Of a stretch of DNA of 34,702 nt, positions 1 to 34,191 are shown in pieces. The notes below the pieces were generated by a model. The model had not been told where the DNA came from. It worked only from the letters and a program-made list of their open reading frames with translations, and searched no databases. The stretch comes from Thermomucor indicae-seudaticae (lineage: Eukaryota > Mucoromycota > Mucoromycetes > Mucorales > Lichtheimiaceae), in contig JSYX01000341.1 in assembly GCA_000787465.1 (NCBI GenBank), forward strand, positions 1 through 34,702, written 5' to 3'. Positions within the stretch are counted from its first letter, which is position 1, and each line of letters opens with the position of its first letter. The translations under genes and the position numbers were made by a program.

Positions 1-1
1 T

Positions 2-1273
2 ACGCCCCGGTCTTACCAAGCTCATTTGCAAAAGACTTTGCAAGATGCTGTTCCTCCCCGTCCGCGTTTCGAAGCCAAGGGGACATTCAGAACAAATGGC
101 GTGTGTTTGAACGTGTCCTTCATAGACTGGGGAAAGAGGAAGCCGTTCTTCAGGAAGAAGTTCCTGCCAGAAATCCGGACAGTCATCCAAAGGGATAAGA
201 ACCTTGAACTTAGCTCCTTCCAAGGTGTAATTGGGATTGACTTCGGAAAGACATACTCGGCAGCAACATTTTTCCTACCAAGCGATCCCACACGTCAAGG
301 CTCCCAGCTCCTGCCCAAGCGCAACGAGCTTTACGGCAGATATAGACGAAACGCAGCTAGGTTGGAGAAACTCAAGATTGCTGCCGGTATTGGGGAAATC
401 GAGCAGGCGCTCTCGGCCGGGTCGCAGTTCTCAACATTGGAAGCCTATATGAGATACGTCAGAGCGTGGCAGCAAGATCAAAATGGGTTGCGAATGCATG
501 CTTTCTACAGCAACAAGGCTATACTTAGGAACTCATGGGACACGACCAGGACCATTACGTCCGCCGTCGACAAGGCTTGGCATCGCATTTTAACACAGCC
601 CCAACTAGGACAGCCTGCCACACCGATGCAGCCCATTGTTTTTGCGCTCGGATACGACAACATGACCACAAGAGGCAGGAAAGAAGCACCAAGTCCAATG
701 GACTCTCGGTTGAAAGATGCTTTGGAACGAGCCATTCGGTCGGCAGGACAGGGCCACATTATCTGCCGGGTGGATGAATACATGACCTCCAGGATCTGCT
801 GCCACTGCATCCAAAATGGCCAGATAAAATTCACTGAGCATCTAGAAAAGCGCGACGGAACCAAGTGTATCAGGGTGCTGGTCTGTACGAACTGTAACAA
901 ATTCTTTCACCGGGACGGTAACGCTGCCCACAATATCGCAAGCATAGCCACATCTATGATCAAGGACCATCAAAGTCCTAGCTGCTTTATACGACCGTCA
1001 AGAAGACCGCGACCATCTCAACCAGAAGCCGGTCCATCCTCCAGTCAGCCTCACCCGCCAGCACCTGATACTCGTGGCGATGACCCTCCTGAAGATATCC
1101 CAGAACAAGTTGATCCTCCGTCCCGTACCTGTAGCTGTCTGTCTTGGCTGAAGCGTGTATGCTGTCTGCAAAATCGAAATCAAAATCAAAACAAAATCAA
1201 AATCAAGATTAATCCATCTGATGACCGATGGATCGAGTGTTTACGCTCTGGGGTAAGTGGCTTGTCCTATTAG
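2..1273 (+). CDS. Fanzor (eukaryotic TnpB-like RNA-guided endonuclease), 5'-partial
   Basis: The frame is open from the left window edge and has no ATG near the edge, so the true start lies outside. Seen: a RuvC-I motif GVIGIDFGKTYSAA (Asp at 239-241), then DEYMTSRICCHC (Glu at 776-778), a four-Cys zinc finger (CxxC at 797-808, CxxC at 884-895) and RuvC-III HRDGNAAHNI (Asp at 914-916). This order (RuvC-I, RuvC-II, Zn finger, RuvC-III) is the signature of TnpB/Fanzor. The Glu just before TSxxCxxC matches the relocated RuvC-II glutamate described for Fanzors; the canonical position (around IVFALGYD) has none. Known role of the family: RNA-guided double-strand DNA cleavage, usually carried on transposons. 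Odd: a tail of about 110 residues after RuvC-III, Pro/Ser-rich, then Cys-rich (RTCSCLSWLKRVCC), then an Asn/Gln/Lys/Ile repeat. No intron interrupts the core, unlike most neighbours. All three catalytic acids and four Zn ligands are present and there is no internal stop, so it may be functional. Confidence 0.9.
   Translation, partial: TPRSYQAHLQKTLQDAVPPRPRFEAKGTFRTNGVCLNVSFIDWGKRKPFFRKKFLPEIRTVIQRDKNLELSSFQGVIGIDFGKTYSAATFFLPSDPTRQGSQLLPKRNELYGRYRRNAARLEKLKIAAGIGEIEQALSAGSQFSTLEAYMRYVRAWQQDQNGLRMHAFYSNKAILRNSWDTTRTITSAVDKAWHRILTQPQLGQPATPMQPIVFALGYDNMTTRGRKEAPSPMDSRLKDALERAIRSAGQGHIICRVDEYMTSRICCHCIQNGQIKFTEHLEKRDGTKCIRVLVCTNCNKFFHRDGNAAHNIASIATSMIKDHQSPSCFIRPSRRPRPSQPEAGPSSSQPHPPAPDTRGDDPPEDIPEQVDPPSRTCSCLSWLKRVCCLQNRNQNQNKIKIKINPSDDRWIECLRSGVSGLSY
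1170..1210 (+). repeat. Short AAAATC-type repeat inside the Fanzor tail
   Basis: About six imperfect AAATCA/AAAATC units encode the NQNQNKIKIKIN tract near the C-terminus of the Fanzor ORF. Such a tract is prone to expansion and suggests that the tail is not under tight constraint. Confidence 0.6.
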
Positions 1274-1311
1274 ACATTTCGGAGAATGAACTAAGTTTTG
1301 TGGATGAATAG
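1253..1311 (+). other. Possible GT-AG intron at the end of the Fanzor ORF (59 nt)
   Basis: A strong donor GTAAGT begins at 1253 and an acceptor ATAG ends at 1311, with AACTAAG as a possible branch point. Length and signals match the genuine introns of the neighbouring genes. Splicing replaces the last eight residues with RNPKRARALMPFIP and moves the stop to 1354-1356. Which C-terminus is used cannot be decided from sequence alone. Confidence 0.45.
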
Positions 1312-1356
1312 AGAAATCCCAAACGTGCACGAGCCTTAATGCCTTTCATTCCGTAA

Positions 1357-1815
1357 ATCCGATCCGACATCATGTCACAAATTCATCGACTGGGTGTTCA
1401 AAACCAAATGCGCATACTACAGCCTAGAAGGCTTAGGAGTGGAGTGTTTGCTAATTCTTTATCTCTGGAAGCGGCTCCAGCATTGTTTCACACGTGTTTC
1501 TTGCAGCAACAGAACCGTAAGCTTGGTATCAGCGGTTCCCTGATGACTTTCGGGTCATTGCGCCAGCAATTGGCGTAACTTGGAGAATAGCCATAGCTGC
1601 AAATGATAAACTATGTATCACGTGATAAGTATCTGTCGCATGAGTTCATCAAAACAGTACAGCGGTCACAAAACAAATCGAAGCATACCAATGCTTTGGT
1701 CTGGATGTCTTTAAAAAAACCAATGTCGTACAGAAACCCTTTCCTGTAACCAGAATGTCGGAAATAAATGCGGGGAATACAAAGATATGATTTATGTGCA
1801 AGAGAAATGATGTGC
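1357..1815. other. Fanzor-UTP3 convergent spacer; candidate transposon right end / guide-RNA region
   Basis: No recognisable gene. The interval separates the Fanzor 3' end from the UTP3 stop codon. It holds a small hairpin (CGCCA/TGGCG, 1561-1575) and a perfect 12-bp palindrome TATCACGTGATA (1616-1627). Two overlapping open frames (1340-1543 and 1372-1578) cover the first 240 bp; neither is recognised. In prokaryotic TnpB loci the guide RNA overlaps the 3' end of the gene and the element end, so by analogy this is a place to search for the Fanzor RNA. No terminal inverted repeat can be paired because the left end is missing. Confidence 0.4.
1616..1627. promoter_or_regulatory. 12-bp palindrome with an E-box core
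   Basis: TATCACGTGATA is a perfect palindrome containing CACGTG, the site class bound by bHLH factors such as Cbf1. It lies 3' of both flanking genes, so a promoter role is not obvious. It could be chance, a distal site, or part of a mobile-element end. Confidence 0.3.
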
Positions 1816-4092
1816 CTAGAATTTGATAGATTTGACCAAGTTGCTCTTGATACCAGTTGCCTCGCCTCCATAAGTTCCAGTAAGAGGCTTGACCACCTGC
1901 CGAACAGAGGACAACTTCTTGAGCTTCTTCGCGTATTTCTTTCTGTGCTTGACACGAGTGTTGCGGTCCTCCTTCTTGCGATGCCGCGTCAGACCCTTGT
2001 TCTTCAACATCTTGTAAGAAGCCAGACGCTTCTGGCCATCTTCAACTTGCACATCGTCATTTATTATCTCTGGCCGTGTCGCTTCGTATTCAGCCTTCTT
2101 GCTTTCCTTCTTAGCTGCCTTGCTTGCTGCAACCTCCTTATAGTAATCGTCATCCTCTTCGTCACGCATTCCTTGTGCTGTTACGAGGTCGTTTTCATCA
2201 TAGTCATTATCATCCAAATCTGCTGATTGATCCGTCGGCTGTTCCACTCCATTCTTCTCCCTGATTTGCCTCTCTTTATACGGGATGTCGGCGTCACCTT
2301 GGTATTTGGCTTGCTGCTTAGCTTGTTTCTATATAAAGTCATATTAGCATTACGGAACAAAACACGGCGACCATTGCATGATAACGTACAGCATCGATCT
2401 TCGTGACGTAGTCTCTTATTGATCGTTTCTTTCTAAGCTTATCTTCCATATCCAACTCATCCAATGCCTCCAGTTCACCGAAATCATCCTCCATTGTCCG
2501 CTTGCGTTTCTTAGCAGCCTTCTTAAGACTCTTGAACTCTTCCTCAATGTCGACAACATCGGGTTCATTGTCCCGCGATTCCTCCTCGACGTCTGCGCCA
2601 TTAGATACCGTAATAACTGGCGAACTTTGTTTCTTTTTGCTGGATTTCTTCTTTTTCTTCGGTATCCGCTCTGTCTCTGACGGTAATTCCTTAACTTCTT
2701 CTGTAACCGTAACTGGTGCATCCAGACTCTGAACGAAGGTCTCGATAGCAGATCGCATTTGTTCTTCTGCCTGCTCCGTCTTCTCCAAGGCCGCTCGAAG
2801 TTCTACAAGAGCTTCAATCACGGGATGATTACTGACGTCGGGCAAGCCTGATGCTTTTAATACAAAGTAGAATGATACGTTTGTCATATAATTGAGTAGT
2901 AGTTCTGCCAGACACATACTGTTATCAGTTCAGACACACGCAAACAGCAATCGATTGCACTTACGATGCTTAAAGCGAATAAATTTCGCTTCATCGTCTT
3001 CAGTACGACCTCTTGCTTGGATCCTATAGAAGGCAAAGACGGTCAATAACTCGTTCCCGCCAAATCGATGCCAGGCAAGTACCTCTCGAGCAGAATTTCC
3101 AATGTCGCTATCATCTGAGATTTATCCTTGAACTCGTTCAACAAGTCCATCAGTTCTGGTGATTCGTTTTGCAATATCTTGATCTTTTCGGTCACAGGCA
3201 GGTCTTTCCGCCGTCTAGCTGCCGATTTACTAACACTGAAAAATAATTCAATAAAACTCTGCCACGCGGTTACGAAGTCTGCAAAGGACTTACTCAAATG
3301 AAATCTCTTCCAAGTCCTTGTTCATACTCTCCACAAGCTGCTTATCGTCAAGTGTATCCTAAACAAGGAACGAATAAGTCATGCGCAACAGTTTTCAAGA
3401 CGTAGGGAGACTTACATCGCGAGCTCTCAGACCCCAGCCTGGAACGTCGTTATCCATAAAGTCAGCTTCGTCCATGGTGGCGATACGCTCCTTTTGGATC
3501 CTCAACGCCTCGGTTTCTTCTTCTTTCATTTCATCGAGGTTCCGACCTTGGTCTGCATTATAGTACAACTTCCTGTTGCGACCCCATGCTCTGTCTATAA
3601 AAACCATGTCTGAATACCATCACGAAAACCGCATTTTCTTCTCGTCGACACTACCATCATATTCCTCTTCTTGTTCTCCTGTGTCCAGGATGTCGTCATC
3701 GCTTTTATCAGCTTGTTGATCTTCCTCCTCCCCTTCCTCTTCGTCAGAGTATCCTGCATCTATGCCATATACTTCGGTTTCACTTCCTTCGCCGTCTATA
3801 TAAGTTCCTCCACAGCGTCAGCTCAATCGTAACTTGTCAATCAATAGCAAATCAATATTACCATCATATTCTTCAGTTTCGTCAAGCAAAACTTTTTCCC
3901 GAGATTCGTGGACTAAAGGATAACGTAAGTTTGGAAATGGTAGAACAGCCACATCCGAAGACAACGCTCACATTCGTCCTCTGAATCGTGCTCAATGTCA
4001 TCCCAAGTTCGTATAGCATTTATTTTCGAGTCCTCGCGTTTATTCTCTTGCGCCGAGGCGTCTCGGAACACGGGAGCTCGCTTCTTTCCCAT
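1816..4092 (-). CDS. UTP3: UTP3/SAS10 small-subunit processome protein (9 exons)
   Basis: Exons: 4092-3972, 3912-3862, 3795-3655, 3594-3416, 3358-3294, 3235-3083, 3023-2965, 2904-2390, 2328-1816; 598 residues, close to yeast Utp3. Role known for the family: U3 snoRNP/90S pre-ribosome component needed for 18S rRNA processing in the nucleolus. Seen: N-terminus MGKKRAPVFRDASA, acidic stretches in exons 2-3, the WGRNRKLYYNAD motif, the Sas10/C1D-like helical region at about 195-290 (VTEKIKILQNESPELMDLL, then NYMTNVSFYFVLKASGLP), a Lys-rich linker, and the diagnostic C-terminal domain (NKGLTRHRKKEDRNTRVKHR, then YGGEATGIK) in the last 75 residues. All introns are 57-66 nt GT-AG. Intron 3 has two possible acceptors (ends 3610 or 3595) that differ by five codons. 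It diverges from BUD13 and converges on the Fanzor gene. Confidence 0.96.
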
Positions 4093-4226: not shown

Positions 4227-5552
4227 ATGGACTCAGCAGAACGAGACGAAATCCTCAAACGAAAATACCTTGCACGGGGACCGGGCGATGCAGCAACCCG
4301 CGAATACGTTGTCAATAAATATCTCGGCGGCGGAGGCGCTGGAGATAGCGACGAAACAGAAAAACGAAAGAAAAAGAAGAAAAAAGTGAAATCAACCATT
4401 CGAAAAGGCAATCTCGGCATTGTCGATGAGGACGACTTTGGATGGAAGCAAATCGATCCCGATCAAGAAGATGAACGACAGAGAGCAAAGCGCGAAGAAT
4501 TAGAGCGAATCGAACGCGAAGCTGCTGCCAACAGTAAAGGAGTATTTCGGGGCAAAACGGAAGGTTGGCATACGATCCAGGAAGGAGTTCCAAGTGAAAC
4601 CAGAGAAGATGAAATGCCAGCAATAGTAACGGAGACCAAAGAAGAAGAGGAGGAGGTCTTGCGAGTATTAGGAAGACAGGAAGTGACAGAGAAACAAAGA
4701 AATGAAGGTTCAACAGGAGAAGGCCCGAGAATGTCAAGTGGACAAAGAGCCGGACTATTGACAAGTGATGAGATCAAGCGAGAGGCAGCCCGGGCTCGGG
4801 AAGCGGAGAGGCAGATAATCAATACATTGGAACAAGATTCAGGGCAGTATGCGGAGACAATATACCGAGATGAGACAGGTCGTAAAATCGACCCGAAGAT
4901 TAAGCGAGCCGAGGAGGCAAGAGCAAGAAAGGAAGCAATGGAAAGGGAAGAGAGACGAATGGAGTGGGGAAAGGGGGTTGTCCAACGCAATGAAGCAGAA
5001 GAACAGCGACGACGACTGGAAGAGGAGAAGCATAAACCACTAGCCAGGCAAGTAATGAAATCAGTGTACCCGGGGGAAGGGGGCCGAAAGGGAGCGATGA
5101 CCGGAGACACACGAGTTAAACTGTCCTGTTGCCTTTGGGTTGGGGGAAGGGAGCTCATAATTGCTTGGGAGATATGGTGTATTAATATTATTGCTTTCTT
5201 TCCTTAGATATGCAGATGATGAAGAATACAATCAGGGACTTCGAGAACAACAACGATGGAACGATCCAGCTGCGGGGTTCTTGACTGTAAGTTCTACCTT
5301 CTCTTTATTGTAACCTTCCCTAGGAGTTACTTTAACTAACTATCGCATTACTAGAATGAACCCAAGCGGAAAGGGCTCACAAGGCCACGGTACAAAGGAC
5401 CTTGGAAACCTAATCGTTACATGATACCGCCTGGCTATCGATGGGACGGCGTCGATAGATCCAATGGATTCGAGGACCGATTCTTACTGTACCAAAACCA
5501 AAAGAAGGCACGAGCGGTAGAAGCACATGCATGGTCCACTGAGGACATGTAA
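4227..5552 (+). CDS. BUD13: BUD13/CWC26, RES-complex pre-mRNA splicing factor (3 exons)
   Basis: Exons: 4227-5047, 5208-5286, 5355-5552; 365 residues. Known role: subunit of the RES (retention and splicing) complex with Snu17 and Pml1, which binds activated spliceosomes and helps splice introns with weak 5' sites. Seen: the N-terminal YLGGGG motif followed by a Lys run and IVDEDDFGWKQID, a long charged helical middle, and the C-terminal Bud13 domain from about 208: RDETGRKIDPK, KPLARYADDEEYN, and RYMIPPGYRWDGVDRSNGFE. The start is ATG 4227; the open frame upstream has no ATG. Intron 1 is a 160-nt GC-AG intron; intron 2 is an ordinary 68-nt GT-AG intron with an AACTAAC branch point. An AATAAA signal overlaps the region just after the stop. 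The gene is divergent from UTP3. Confidence 0.95.
5048..5207 (+). other. Non-canonical GC-AG intron in BUD13
   Basis: The only junction that restores the conserved KPLAR-YADDEEYN reading is AG|GCAAGT to TTCCTTAG|A. A nearby GT (GTAATG at 5051) would put the downstream exon out of frame with an immediate TGA. AG|GCAAGT is the typical strong context of GC-AG introns. At 160 nt it is more than twice as long as any other intron assigned in the window. Retention would add about 53 codons and stop at the acceptor TAG itself. Confidence 0.85.
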
Positions 5553-32245: not shown

Positions 32246-34191
32246 ATGACGTTGTGGGTACCTGAAACCAACGGGCAGTCCGATACTACTCCAATACCTA
32301 CCGCGGGCGGATGTGTCTCTGAAGAGAAGTACAAACTATTGAAAAGACGACTACGGGAAGTCACTGAAGTAAGACAAGAAAGAGAATCGCTGCCCTTCGT
32401 TGACTGATATTGAAACCTTAAAAGCGCAACGAAATATTGTCCCACGACCTGAACCGGGCAAAGAAACGATTACGCCGCCTGGCAAAAGAGAAAAGGTACA
32501 AAAAAAGAAAGCGGACGGACCACGCTTCATTGTTCTAACACAGTCTCTCTCTAGTATATTACTGGATAGAATTTTGAAATATGATAATCAAGCAGGCAGA
32601 CGCAAAGTGCGCGATCAAGGCACCAACACCTCCCCTATGGAGTTGGTCTCTGACCTTAATATCGGAAAAGGTAAGAATTGACCATCTAAAAAGAAAGCCC
32701 CTCCTAATGATCGTCCTGAACAGTTTCACCTTTTACACCAAACGAATCACCACCTACTTTACCTGTACCATGGCAGCAGCAGCAGCAGCAGCAGCCGCCT
32801 GCTAAACCACAGCCTATCCAGATGCAACCACAGGTGTTGCCACCACCACCTCCTCCTATAACTCATGCTCCTGCTGCTGCTCCACCTCCACCACAGCAAG
32901 TAATGCCATCACCAGCAGCAGCGTCCGAGACGCCTGCGCACGGTCAATCTCCTTCCTCTGATCAAAGTCAAAGCTCATCCCAAGCAAGTTGTTCTTCTGG
33001 ACGTCCACGGGTGGACGTCATGTTTCAAGACGGCAGAATGGTACCTTCGTCAAGGCCAAAGCGCATGCGACGAGGTCCAGTCGAACAAAAGCTGCGGCGC
33101 GTGCAACCCCTTGAAAAGGATCCTATCTCGGGTGAATACAAGTTACCAGCCCGTGTGGGTATCTTGACGGTACATTCTCTTGGCCGAGTGGTGCCACTGC
33201 CCACCTATCACAATGACCGATACATCTGGCCACCTGGCTTTAAAGTGAGCAGGTATGTATTGTTTTCGAGATACTCACTTTGAGCCGGAAACCTAAATTT
33301 GCAGAATAGAACTTACTTGAGCATGGTGAATCCGAACGCAAATACAGTGTACACATGCTCCGTCGAAGAAAATGGCGAGCAAGGCCCTCGGGTAAGTGAA
33401 TGATTTTACTCTCTTTAAGGCAATATCACCAATGTCTTTTCGTTAGTTCCGAGTGGTAGCGGACGATTGCCCAGATCAACCAATCGTTGCCAACTCTGCC
33501 ACAGGTGTCTGGACAGCCATTGTGAAGCGAGCCAATGAAATCCGCAACCGAGACCATTCGAATTCAGGTTCGTCTAGTCACCCGTCGTCTCTAATGGATA
33601 ACTTGCTAATACCATCTATTTGCAGCGTCCGGCCCTGATTACTATGGCTTTACACATGCGACGATTGCCAAAATGATTCAAGACCTCCCTGGAGCCGATA
33701 ACTGTATCAATTATGTGTGGCAAAAGTTTGGAGAAATGCATGAACGTACTGCCGCTGGAGTAGCAGCAGCAGCACAAAAGAAGTTGACCAACCTGGAAAT
33801 CATGGGCAGCGCCAACAAGCGACCACCGCAGATCCCGCCTCCTAAGCAACAGCAACGACAACAGCGGCAACAACAACAGCACCAGCCACCACGGCTGCCA
33901 CCACCAGCGCAGCATCAGCAGCAACAACCGCCCCCGCCGCCACTGCCGCATCCGCAACAACAGCCACTACCGCCGCCGCAGCAGCAGCATCAGCAGCAAC
34001 AGAGGCCACCATCTGTAGCAATCAAGAGAGAAGAAACGTCTATTTCACCTGCACTTCAACGCTTTTCCAATGTAGCGGAATCCAGTGTCAGGAACCCGCC
34101 TTTACCACCTCCTCCTTCTGCTGATCCCCGACCTGTTCATAATCCAGCTGTTATAAAGATGGAACCACGAGAAGATGAGCCGATGCAGTAA
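32246..34191 (+). CDS. TBRG1-like FYRN/FYRC-domain chromatin protein (7 exons)
   Basis: Exons: 32246-32368, 32425-32495, 32555-32670, 32724-33252, 33310-33391, 33447-33567, 33626-34191; 535 residues; all introns 53-59 nt. Seen: an N-terminal coiled coil (EEKYKLLKRRLREVTE, then LNRAKKRLRRLAKEKSILLD) as in animal TBRG1, a Q7/Pro-rich linker, FYRN at about 250-307 (HSLGRVVPLPTYHNDRYIWP), FYRC at about 308-375 (RVVADDCPDQPIV, YYGFTHATIAKMI), then a Gln/Pro-rich tail with two psi-K-x-E sumoylation motifs (AIKREE and VIKMEPRE). FYR domains pair into one fold and occur in MLL-type methyltransferases and in TBRG1 (a growth-arrest nuclear protein). No SET or PHD domain is present here, so the TBRG1-like architecture fits best. 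Expected place: nucleus. Confidence 0.9.
32774..32794 (+). repeat. (CAG)7 in the FYR gene
   Basis: Seven pure CAG codons encode Q7 at the start of exon 4's low-complexity linker. It is a possible length-polymorphic tract. Confidence 0.95.

Follow-up and report, generated by a model that had tools for sequence, protein, structure and literature searches.

The window, by which the whole stretch of 34,702 nt (contig JSYX01000341.1, C294 below) is meant, opens with a reading frame that probably represents the 3' half of a non-autonomous transposon with terminal inverted repeats (TIRs), encoding a variant Fanzor1-like RNA-guided DNA nuclease with DFG at RuvC-I; the family to which it belongs is most likely largely decayed. 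The motifs of the frame, purifying selection on it, the ends of related copies in the same genome and a conserved 3' block carry this reading. Fanzors are eukaryotic RNA-guided DNA nucleases, kin of TnpB and Cas12. A Fanzor-type protein is expected in such a fungus; what is new here is the DFG lineage with its element ends and 3' block. For the Mucorales, the protein PpFz1 has been described with a solved structure and activity in vitro (PMC11423790, in part).

The open frame and its catalytic motifs

Translation of window positions 2–1273 (+) gives a single open frame of 423 aa with zero internal stops, whose 5' side runs off the contig edge; the remaining two forward frames have 20 and 16 stops within the first 1300 bases. 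Features of the frame are listed below.

2..1273, +: open frame, 3' half of a DFG-type Fanzor1-like nuclease (translation, PF07282, homologue P0002)
92..100, +: T-N-G motif, residues 31–33, at the place of the Fanzor1 WED 'TDG' (alignments)
239..247, +: RuvC-I, D80-F81-G82 (DFG instead of DPG); D80 codon at 239, GAC
776..778, +: relocated RuvC-II glutamate E259 (Ealt), codon GAA, six residues upstream of the first zinc cysteine
797..895, +: C4 zinc finger, C266, C269, C295 and C298 (PF07282)
914..916, +: RuvC-III D305, codon GAC, within HRDGNAAHN
1168..1196, +: CAAAAT-like repeats, 29 nt, present in the window and absent from the related copy C508 (pairwise alignment)

A sequence-only reading of the window had claimed one unbroken frame (2..1273) with Asp at 239–241, Glu at 776–778, four zinc cysteines and Asp at 914–916, and this was borne out by translation and a check of the codons. 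Cysteine codons are located at 797 (C266), 800 (C267), 806 (C269), 884 (C295) and 893 (C298), and the spacing from the relocated glutamate reads E259-YMTSRI-C266. Residues fit the superfamily motif of Bao and Jurka, D-X(125,275)-[TS]-[TS]-X-X-C4 zinc finger-X(5,50)-RD (PMC3627910, in part), as follows: D80; 181 residues; T262 and S263; R and I; C266, C269, C295 and C298; 5 residues; R304 and D305. The canonical RuvC-II glutamate (Ecan, about 50 residues upstream of the zinc finger) is absent, the aligned residues 212–219 reading IVFALGYD with no Glu. In Pfam, the zinc-ribbon domain PF07282 scored 31.8 bits against a cut-off of 26.3; TnpB profiles, proposed earlier as a check, matched weakly (best NCBIfam TnpB model, 33.2 bits against a cut-off of 100). 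The best homologue of the window protein is P0002 (E 1.6e-77). A chance frame is not plausible because of the PF07282 score, the E-value of P0002, and a ratio of nonsynonymous to synonymous substitution rates (dN/dS) of 0.25 against C508, compared with 1.39 and 1.46 in the wrong frames.

The motifs, PF07282 and the profile searches support a RuvC nuclease of TnpB/Fanzor type in which every visible catalytic and zinc ligand is present. Its eukaryotic host is supported by genes for SAS10, Bud13, a BCKDK-type kinase and a RabGAP on the same contig; that the host is a fungus is indicated by relatives named Apophysomyces and Absidia.

The window comprises the whole of contig C294, one of 735 in a 24.8-Mb genome, and the 5' half of the nuclease is therefore absent from the assembly, not merely outside the window. 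The sequence-only reading was right that the 5' part is missing, but the leftward extension it proposed is impossible in this assembly, and its claim of catalytic intactness holds for the 3' half that is present. A DNA search of the genome with window 1–2400 found no overlapping contig end (only C294 itself, C508 and C35 matched), and genome searches with the window DNA and with the frame of the related copy C65 found no contig joinable to the window.

At its other end, the frame probably carries a recent over-read of roughly 25–30 residues. C508 reads ...CCFQNQD-stop at the corresponding place (hand translation); the window frame crosses the same TAA (1210–1212) out of frame and continues through the 3' block to 1273. 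The 29-nt repeat insertion shifts the frame beyond this TAA, and the last 25–30 or so residues are therefore probably encoded by the 3' terminal block.

The DFG signature and its place among Fanzor and TnpB

The Fanzor fingerprint has been given as DPG, found 'near exclusively', combined with a Glu relocated to a position six residues upstream of the zinc finger (Yoon et al. 2023; PMC10711439, in part). TnpB homologues with a relocated Glu and D-Phi-G are described as a clade of their own, distinct from the DPG clade to which the Fanzors belong (PMC10711439, section 23), and a TDG motif in the WED domain is described as a Fanzor1 feature (PMC10711439, section 28). Among the 10 loci readable with a window-type profile, RuvC-I reads DFG in eight, DSG in one, DLG in one and DPG in none; outside the genome, P0002 has DLG and P0003 has DIG. 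Because DPG is absent from all ten loci and from both these proteins, its absence is taken as a trait of the lineage. Glu occupies the relocated column in 32 of the 34 readable loci of this genome (both nuclease types pooled). T(D/N)G upstream of RuvC-I reads TNG in the window and TDG in P0002 and C64; a TnpB has a DG pair by eye. With a relocated Glu and no DPG, the window type is therefore not filed as canonical Fanzor: the Fanzor assignment proposed earlier agrees with the relocated Glu and the C-terminal motif but not with RuvC-I. As judged from these motifs, the window type is a eukaryotic DFG lineage that resembles Fanzor in the other motifs tested.

Remnants of DPG-type Fanzor1 occur in the same genome, with WGVDPGLLDVFVAVDG in C282 (188–1300) and AIDPGRTQIYVAVNG in C616, and C415 carries a DYG relative; P0004, P0005 (Absidia cylindrospora) and P0006 (Apophysomyces) also have DPG. 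By motif, the fragments in C282, C616 and C415 are canonical Fanzor1.

One protein search returned two relatives among 3899 candidates scored. In two others, which scored only the 7991 candidates with the most words in common, the 818-aa C65 frame had no match at E 0.001 and a mixed profile had five at E up to 1. Searching the PDB with a single sequence gave nothing under E 0.09. A five-sequence profile that included two DPG-type Fanzor1s was led by PpFz1 (1.3e-8), mimivirus L79 (7e-7) and SpuFz1 (4.3e-6); with the profile lacking them, TranC, L79 and TnpBs ranked ahead of SpuFz1. A kinked REC2 helix pair and insertions in the WED domain mark the structures of Fanzor1. The AlphaFold2 model built from the same five sequences was poor (mean predicted local distance difference test, pLDDT, 43), too poor for the superposition of the three acids suggested earlier. 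Foldseek placed SpuFz (4e-7, template modelling score 0.22) and PpFz (2e-4, 0.16) as the top two of 350,542 PDB chains, a ranking to be read with caution given the model; a second look at the Foldseek matches with VIA-align showed zero Fanzors among 50 rows.

In a tree of 13 rows (left out of sixteen prepared: the C282 piece, the P0006 piece and C290), nine window-type rows group (85/90), as do two DPG-type rows (93/92); the order of these groups relative to two TnpBs is weak (78/64), and no branch reaches the strong mark. Scans of prokaryotic and viral contigs with short peptide patterns (two to six each) gave no relatives, and plasmid records matched only at E 0.07 or worse, many of them annotated as TnpB or transposase. 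One haloarchaeal TnpB with DLG (L076, 571–1821) was considered as an example of relocated Glu with D-Phi-G and rejected; by eye it has Glu at both RuvC-II positions, the canonical one (PEDV) lying about 50 residues before the zinc finger.

The window type resembles Fanzor1 (SpuFz1, PpFz1 and the families that Bao and Jurka described from fungi in 2013) in the C-terminal motif, the relocated Glu, carriage on a TIR element with no visible transposase and a distinct conserved 3' end, and its T(D/N)G before RuvC-I may correspond to the Fanzor1 TDG. Unlike Fanzor1, it has DFG instead of DPG in the window, is about 21–31% identical to the two DPG-type proteins compared, and includes a relative, C65, whose frame runs 818 codons ahead of the zinc finger. 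With the D-Phi-G relocated-Glu clade of TnpB, compared by description (PMC10711439, section 23), it shares the same pair of active-site signatures; it differs from that clade in its eukaryotic host and TIR transposon, and the scanned contigs held no prokaryotic relative.

On these data a sister or derived branch of Fanzor1 is favoured. The window type may instead be an ordinary Fanzor1 family in which the RuvC-I proline has merely changed and nothing else is different, a possibility we take seriously but lean against: 'near exclusively' allows exceptions (PMC10711439, in part), and Fanzor1 families of Mucor, Rhizopus and Phycomyces have been listed since 2013 (PMC3627910, in part), but the lack of DPG in every window-type locus and in P0002 and P0003, and the clear separation of the DPG-type remnants in the same genome, speak otherwise. 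It is very unlikely, in our judgement, that a third eukaryotic TnpB-derived lineage was taken up, separately from Fanzor1 and Fanzor2, from a prokaryotic TnpB that already carried a relocated Glu and a hydrophobic RuvC-I residue. Such a history would agree with the distinct clade described for that signature pair and with the grouping of the window type apart from the DPG type, weak as the order of the groups is; it is opposed by T(D/N)G before RuvC-I as in the Fanzor1 rows, by the RPxxFxRP-like tail (partly present in TnpB too), by the two Fanzor1s at the top of the Foldseek ranking, and by the lack of a relative in one scan each of prokaryotic and viral contigs, either scan using two short peptide patterns. 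The literature searched, the coverage of which is incomplete, yielded no account of a D-Phi-G lineage in eukaryotes or of splicing of a Fanzor guide RNA.

Element ends and the 3' terminal block

Features at the right end of the element are listed below.

1209..1319, +: 3' terminal block, candidate omega-RNA scaffold and transposon right end
1212..1233, +: predicted hairpin 1, 7 bp, with one C-G to U-A exchange relative to other copies
1235..1248, +: predicted hairpin 2, 5 bp, register shifted relative to other copies
1253..1311, +: intron-like stretch, GTAAGT...CTAAG...ATAG, 59 nt, overlapping the decayed right TIR
1310..1319, +: right terminus AGAGAAATCC, common to the window and five other copies (copy comparison)
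1320..1340, +: flank from which the guide would come, should an omega-RNA be made (from PMC10711439, in part)

Comparison of the copies indicates that the window nuclease is carried by a TIR element, whose ends are defined from the left ends in C31, C356 and C51 and from six right ends. The right terminus is found in the window, C65, C290, C31 (variant AGAGAGATCC, one base), C351 and C356, with unrelated flanks beyond. The left ends read CTCTAAATCTCA, which is the inverted complement of the right subterminal sequence, and the left end expected for the C294 copy is CTCTAAATCTCAACAC; the window's own left end lies off the contig, and its right TIR is decayed with the terminus kept. A genome scan with the TIR pattern (two mismatches allowed; built from the same copies for which it was scanned) found 8 sites, all but one of them at ends of these elements; the reversed control had none. 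The site at C82:55445, with surroundings that match no compared element, was taken as chance and not as an element end.

Inverted-repeat searches around single copies recognised no TIRs, which emerged from comparing copies. Flanks compared by eye show no target site duplication (TSD) in C31 and C356, the two copies with both ends, and no transposase was identified in these elements. Helitron2-type asymmetric ends were set aside, the right repeat lying 6 bases from the end and not 20–30; the TIR ends also argue against an IS607-type element with a serine recombinase, as expected of Fanzor2, although no search aimed at a recombinase was made. The layout of TIRs and one Fanzor frame, though not the TIR sequence, is likened to that of the SPu-1 element with SpuFz1 (PMC3627910, in part). 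The window family differs in that six conserved bases stand beyond the right TIR and that neither of the two copies retaining both ends shows a duplication.

Conservation covers about 110–125 nt between the expected stop and the right end. C65 and C290 are 93.5% identical over 124 nt of this block versus 67.8% over 400 nt of coding DNA; C65 and C31, 80.6% over 139 nt versus 65.9% over 947 nt. As a genome query, the C65 block matched C65, C290, C351, C356, C31, C109 and C51; C109 retains only about 110 nt. C351 (L066), C356 (L067) and C51 (L073) are shortened elements that keep the block (C51, its hairpin part only), and no nuclease core was seen between their matching parts.

Window 1209–1252, a section chosen after folding the whole block, folds into the two hairpins (z -2.79; 0 of 200 shuffles as stable); the full block 1209–1319 is unremarkable (z -0.18), and six other folded sequences range from z -1.70 to +0.71. 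Hairpin 1 is present in the lowest-energy fold of the window, C65, C290 and C356, partial in C31, and absent in C351 and C508. In C65, C290, C31 and C356, a closing stem leaves six unpaired bases ahead of the flank. Across nine copies 93.7% of cells pair, compared with 38–58% with slid partners, in a structure derived from the same sequences; covariation is not above that of shuffles (two pairs changed on both sides, equalled by 185 of 500 shuffles), and Rfam gave no family matches in the window.

Fanzor1 guide RNAs (reRNAs) reach about 15 nt past the TSD of the transposon and include TIR sequence (PMC10711439, section 27), so that window 1320–1340 would hold the guide. By analogy with Fanzor1, the 3' end of the transcript (hairpins and right end, window 1209–1319) would fold into an omega-RNA, host DNA after 1319 would serve as guide, and cutting of the matching empty site by the protein would favour keeping or copying of the element; guide RNA, cleavage and a role in transposition are all extrapolated from that model.

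Six copies have an intron-like stretch of 59–68 nt running from GTAAGT (GTACGT in C290) to AG. Some 20 nt ahead of TTTAG stands CTGAC, CTAAC or CTTAC; the window has CTAAG there, and in C356 the distance to AG is greater. As a yardstick, the 61-nt intron of SAS10 reads GTACGT...GCTAATATGAC...TATAG, and the frame stays open on its removal. Removing the intron-like stretch joins GG to AGAAATCC, and a hairpin with a GNRA loop results in five of the six copies, C290 being the exception. Of the 1348 junctions tested, 19 score equally; this was tested after the pattern had been seen, on related copies, with C109 omitted. It is thus conceivable, though we consider it quite unlikely, that the guide RNA is matured by the spliceosome, with the right TIR in an intron between the two scaffold hairpins and the last bases AGAAATCC; the closing stem in the unspliced folds speaks against it. 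If true, splicing would remove most of the TIR and place a third, GNRA-loop hairpin directly before the guide, and the demands of transposase and guide RNA would be reconciled by placing one of them in an intron. GTAAGT- or GTAAGG-like sites soon after the core also occur in other subfamilies (C215 (L045), 400–680; C4 (L026), 4850–5140; C587 (L053), 800–1100).

Copies in the genome, constraint and meaning

The window protein matches 56 stretches of its own genome (the window itself and multiple pieces of single copies counted), and PF07282 matches 37, of which 35 are above the cut-off. Stop-to-stop frames of 40 fetched regions and the window were scored with a core profile; 40 of the 41, the window included, had a match. 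One open frame covers RuvC-I to RuvC-III in four (the window, C368, C591 and C4), each of which retains the D, E, four C and D residues; the other scored copies are interrupted, or cut by contig or fetch ends. The best protein match is C65 (55% identical), which has a stop just upstream of the zinc finger and, counting one stop, a frame of about 960 codons; the closest DNA relative is C508 (76% over window 527–1248), which is frame-shifted and rearranged.

Between the window and C508, synonymous divergence (dS) is 0.51, and the dN/dS of 0.25 over 222 codons divides into 0.17 for the core (131 codons) and 0.39 for the tail (91 codons). Four recent pairs of other copies (dS 0.06–0.12) have dN/dS of 0.52–0.78, in keeping with relaxed constraint; an older pair, C591/C3, has 0.28 in a weak alignment. 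The window frame was probably under constraint for most of its separate history, because dN/dS is 0.17–0.25 at dS of about 0.5 despite the dead partner copy.

That the window nonetheless holds a dead transposon fragment, its frame open only because death was recent, has in our estimate somewhat less than an even chance: whole copies are few, the recent pairs show raised ratios, the expected stop was lost to the repeat insertion and the right TIR is decayed; the probable constraint on the window lineage is the argument against. For the 3' block, conservation solely as a transposase-binding end that makes no guide RNA is an unlikely account. The block contains the right TIR, its covariation is not significant and as a whole it is not unusually stable in the folded copies. 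Conservation nevertheless begins at the stop codon, well ahead of the TIR, and spans the hairpin region; the 44-nt hairpin part of the window, a post hoc choice, outdoes every shuffle; and the hairpin part survives in C51 and C109 despite a lost or diverged right end.

Other observations concern neighbouring sequences. In C368 (L030, 3714–5361), a pair of 126-nt inverted repeats, 96–98% complementary and 1.4 kb apart, lies upstream of the nuclease copy. An element with 35-nt inverted repeats (91% complementary), Tc1/mariner-like by eye, adjoins the C508 copy (L029, 393–1761). In the window, SAS10 (1816–2929, -) is the neighbour of the nuclease gene in tail-to-tail orientation, a pair of direct repeats, about 47–50 nt long and 80% identical, is found at 33877–34001, and a questin-oxidase-like gene is also located on the contig.

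A variant Fanzor1-like nuclease on a TIR element remains the preferred reading. A eukaryotic lineage with the relocated Glu and without DPG uncouples two traits that have jointly served as the fingerprint of Fanzor, and is relevant to whether such nucleases entered eukaryotes once or several times. Its many, mostly fragmentary copies stand beside DPG-type Fanzor1 remnants in one 24.8-Mb genome, which allows comparison within one host. With the ends of the element defined, a search for the guide RNA has a specific target, and the intron-like block allows a direct test of the conflict between transposase ends and guide RNA.
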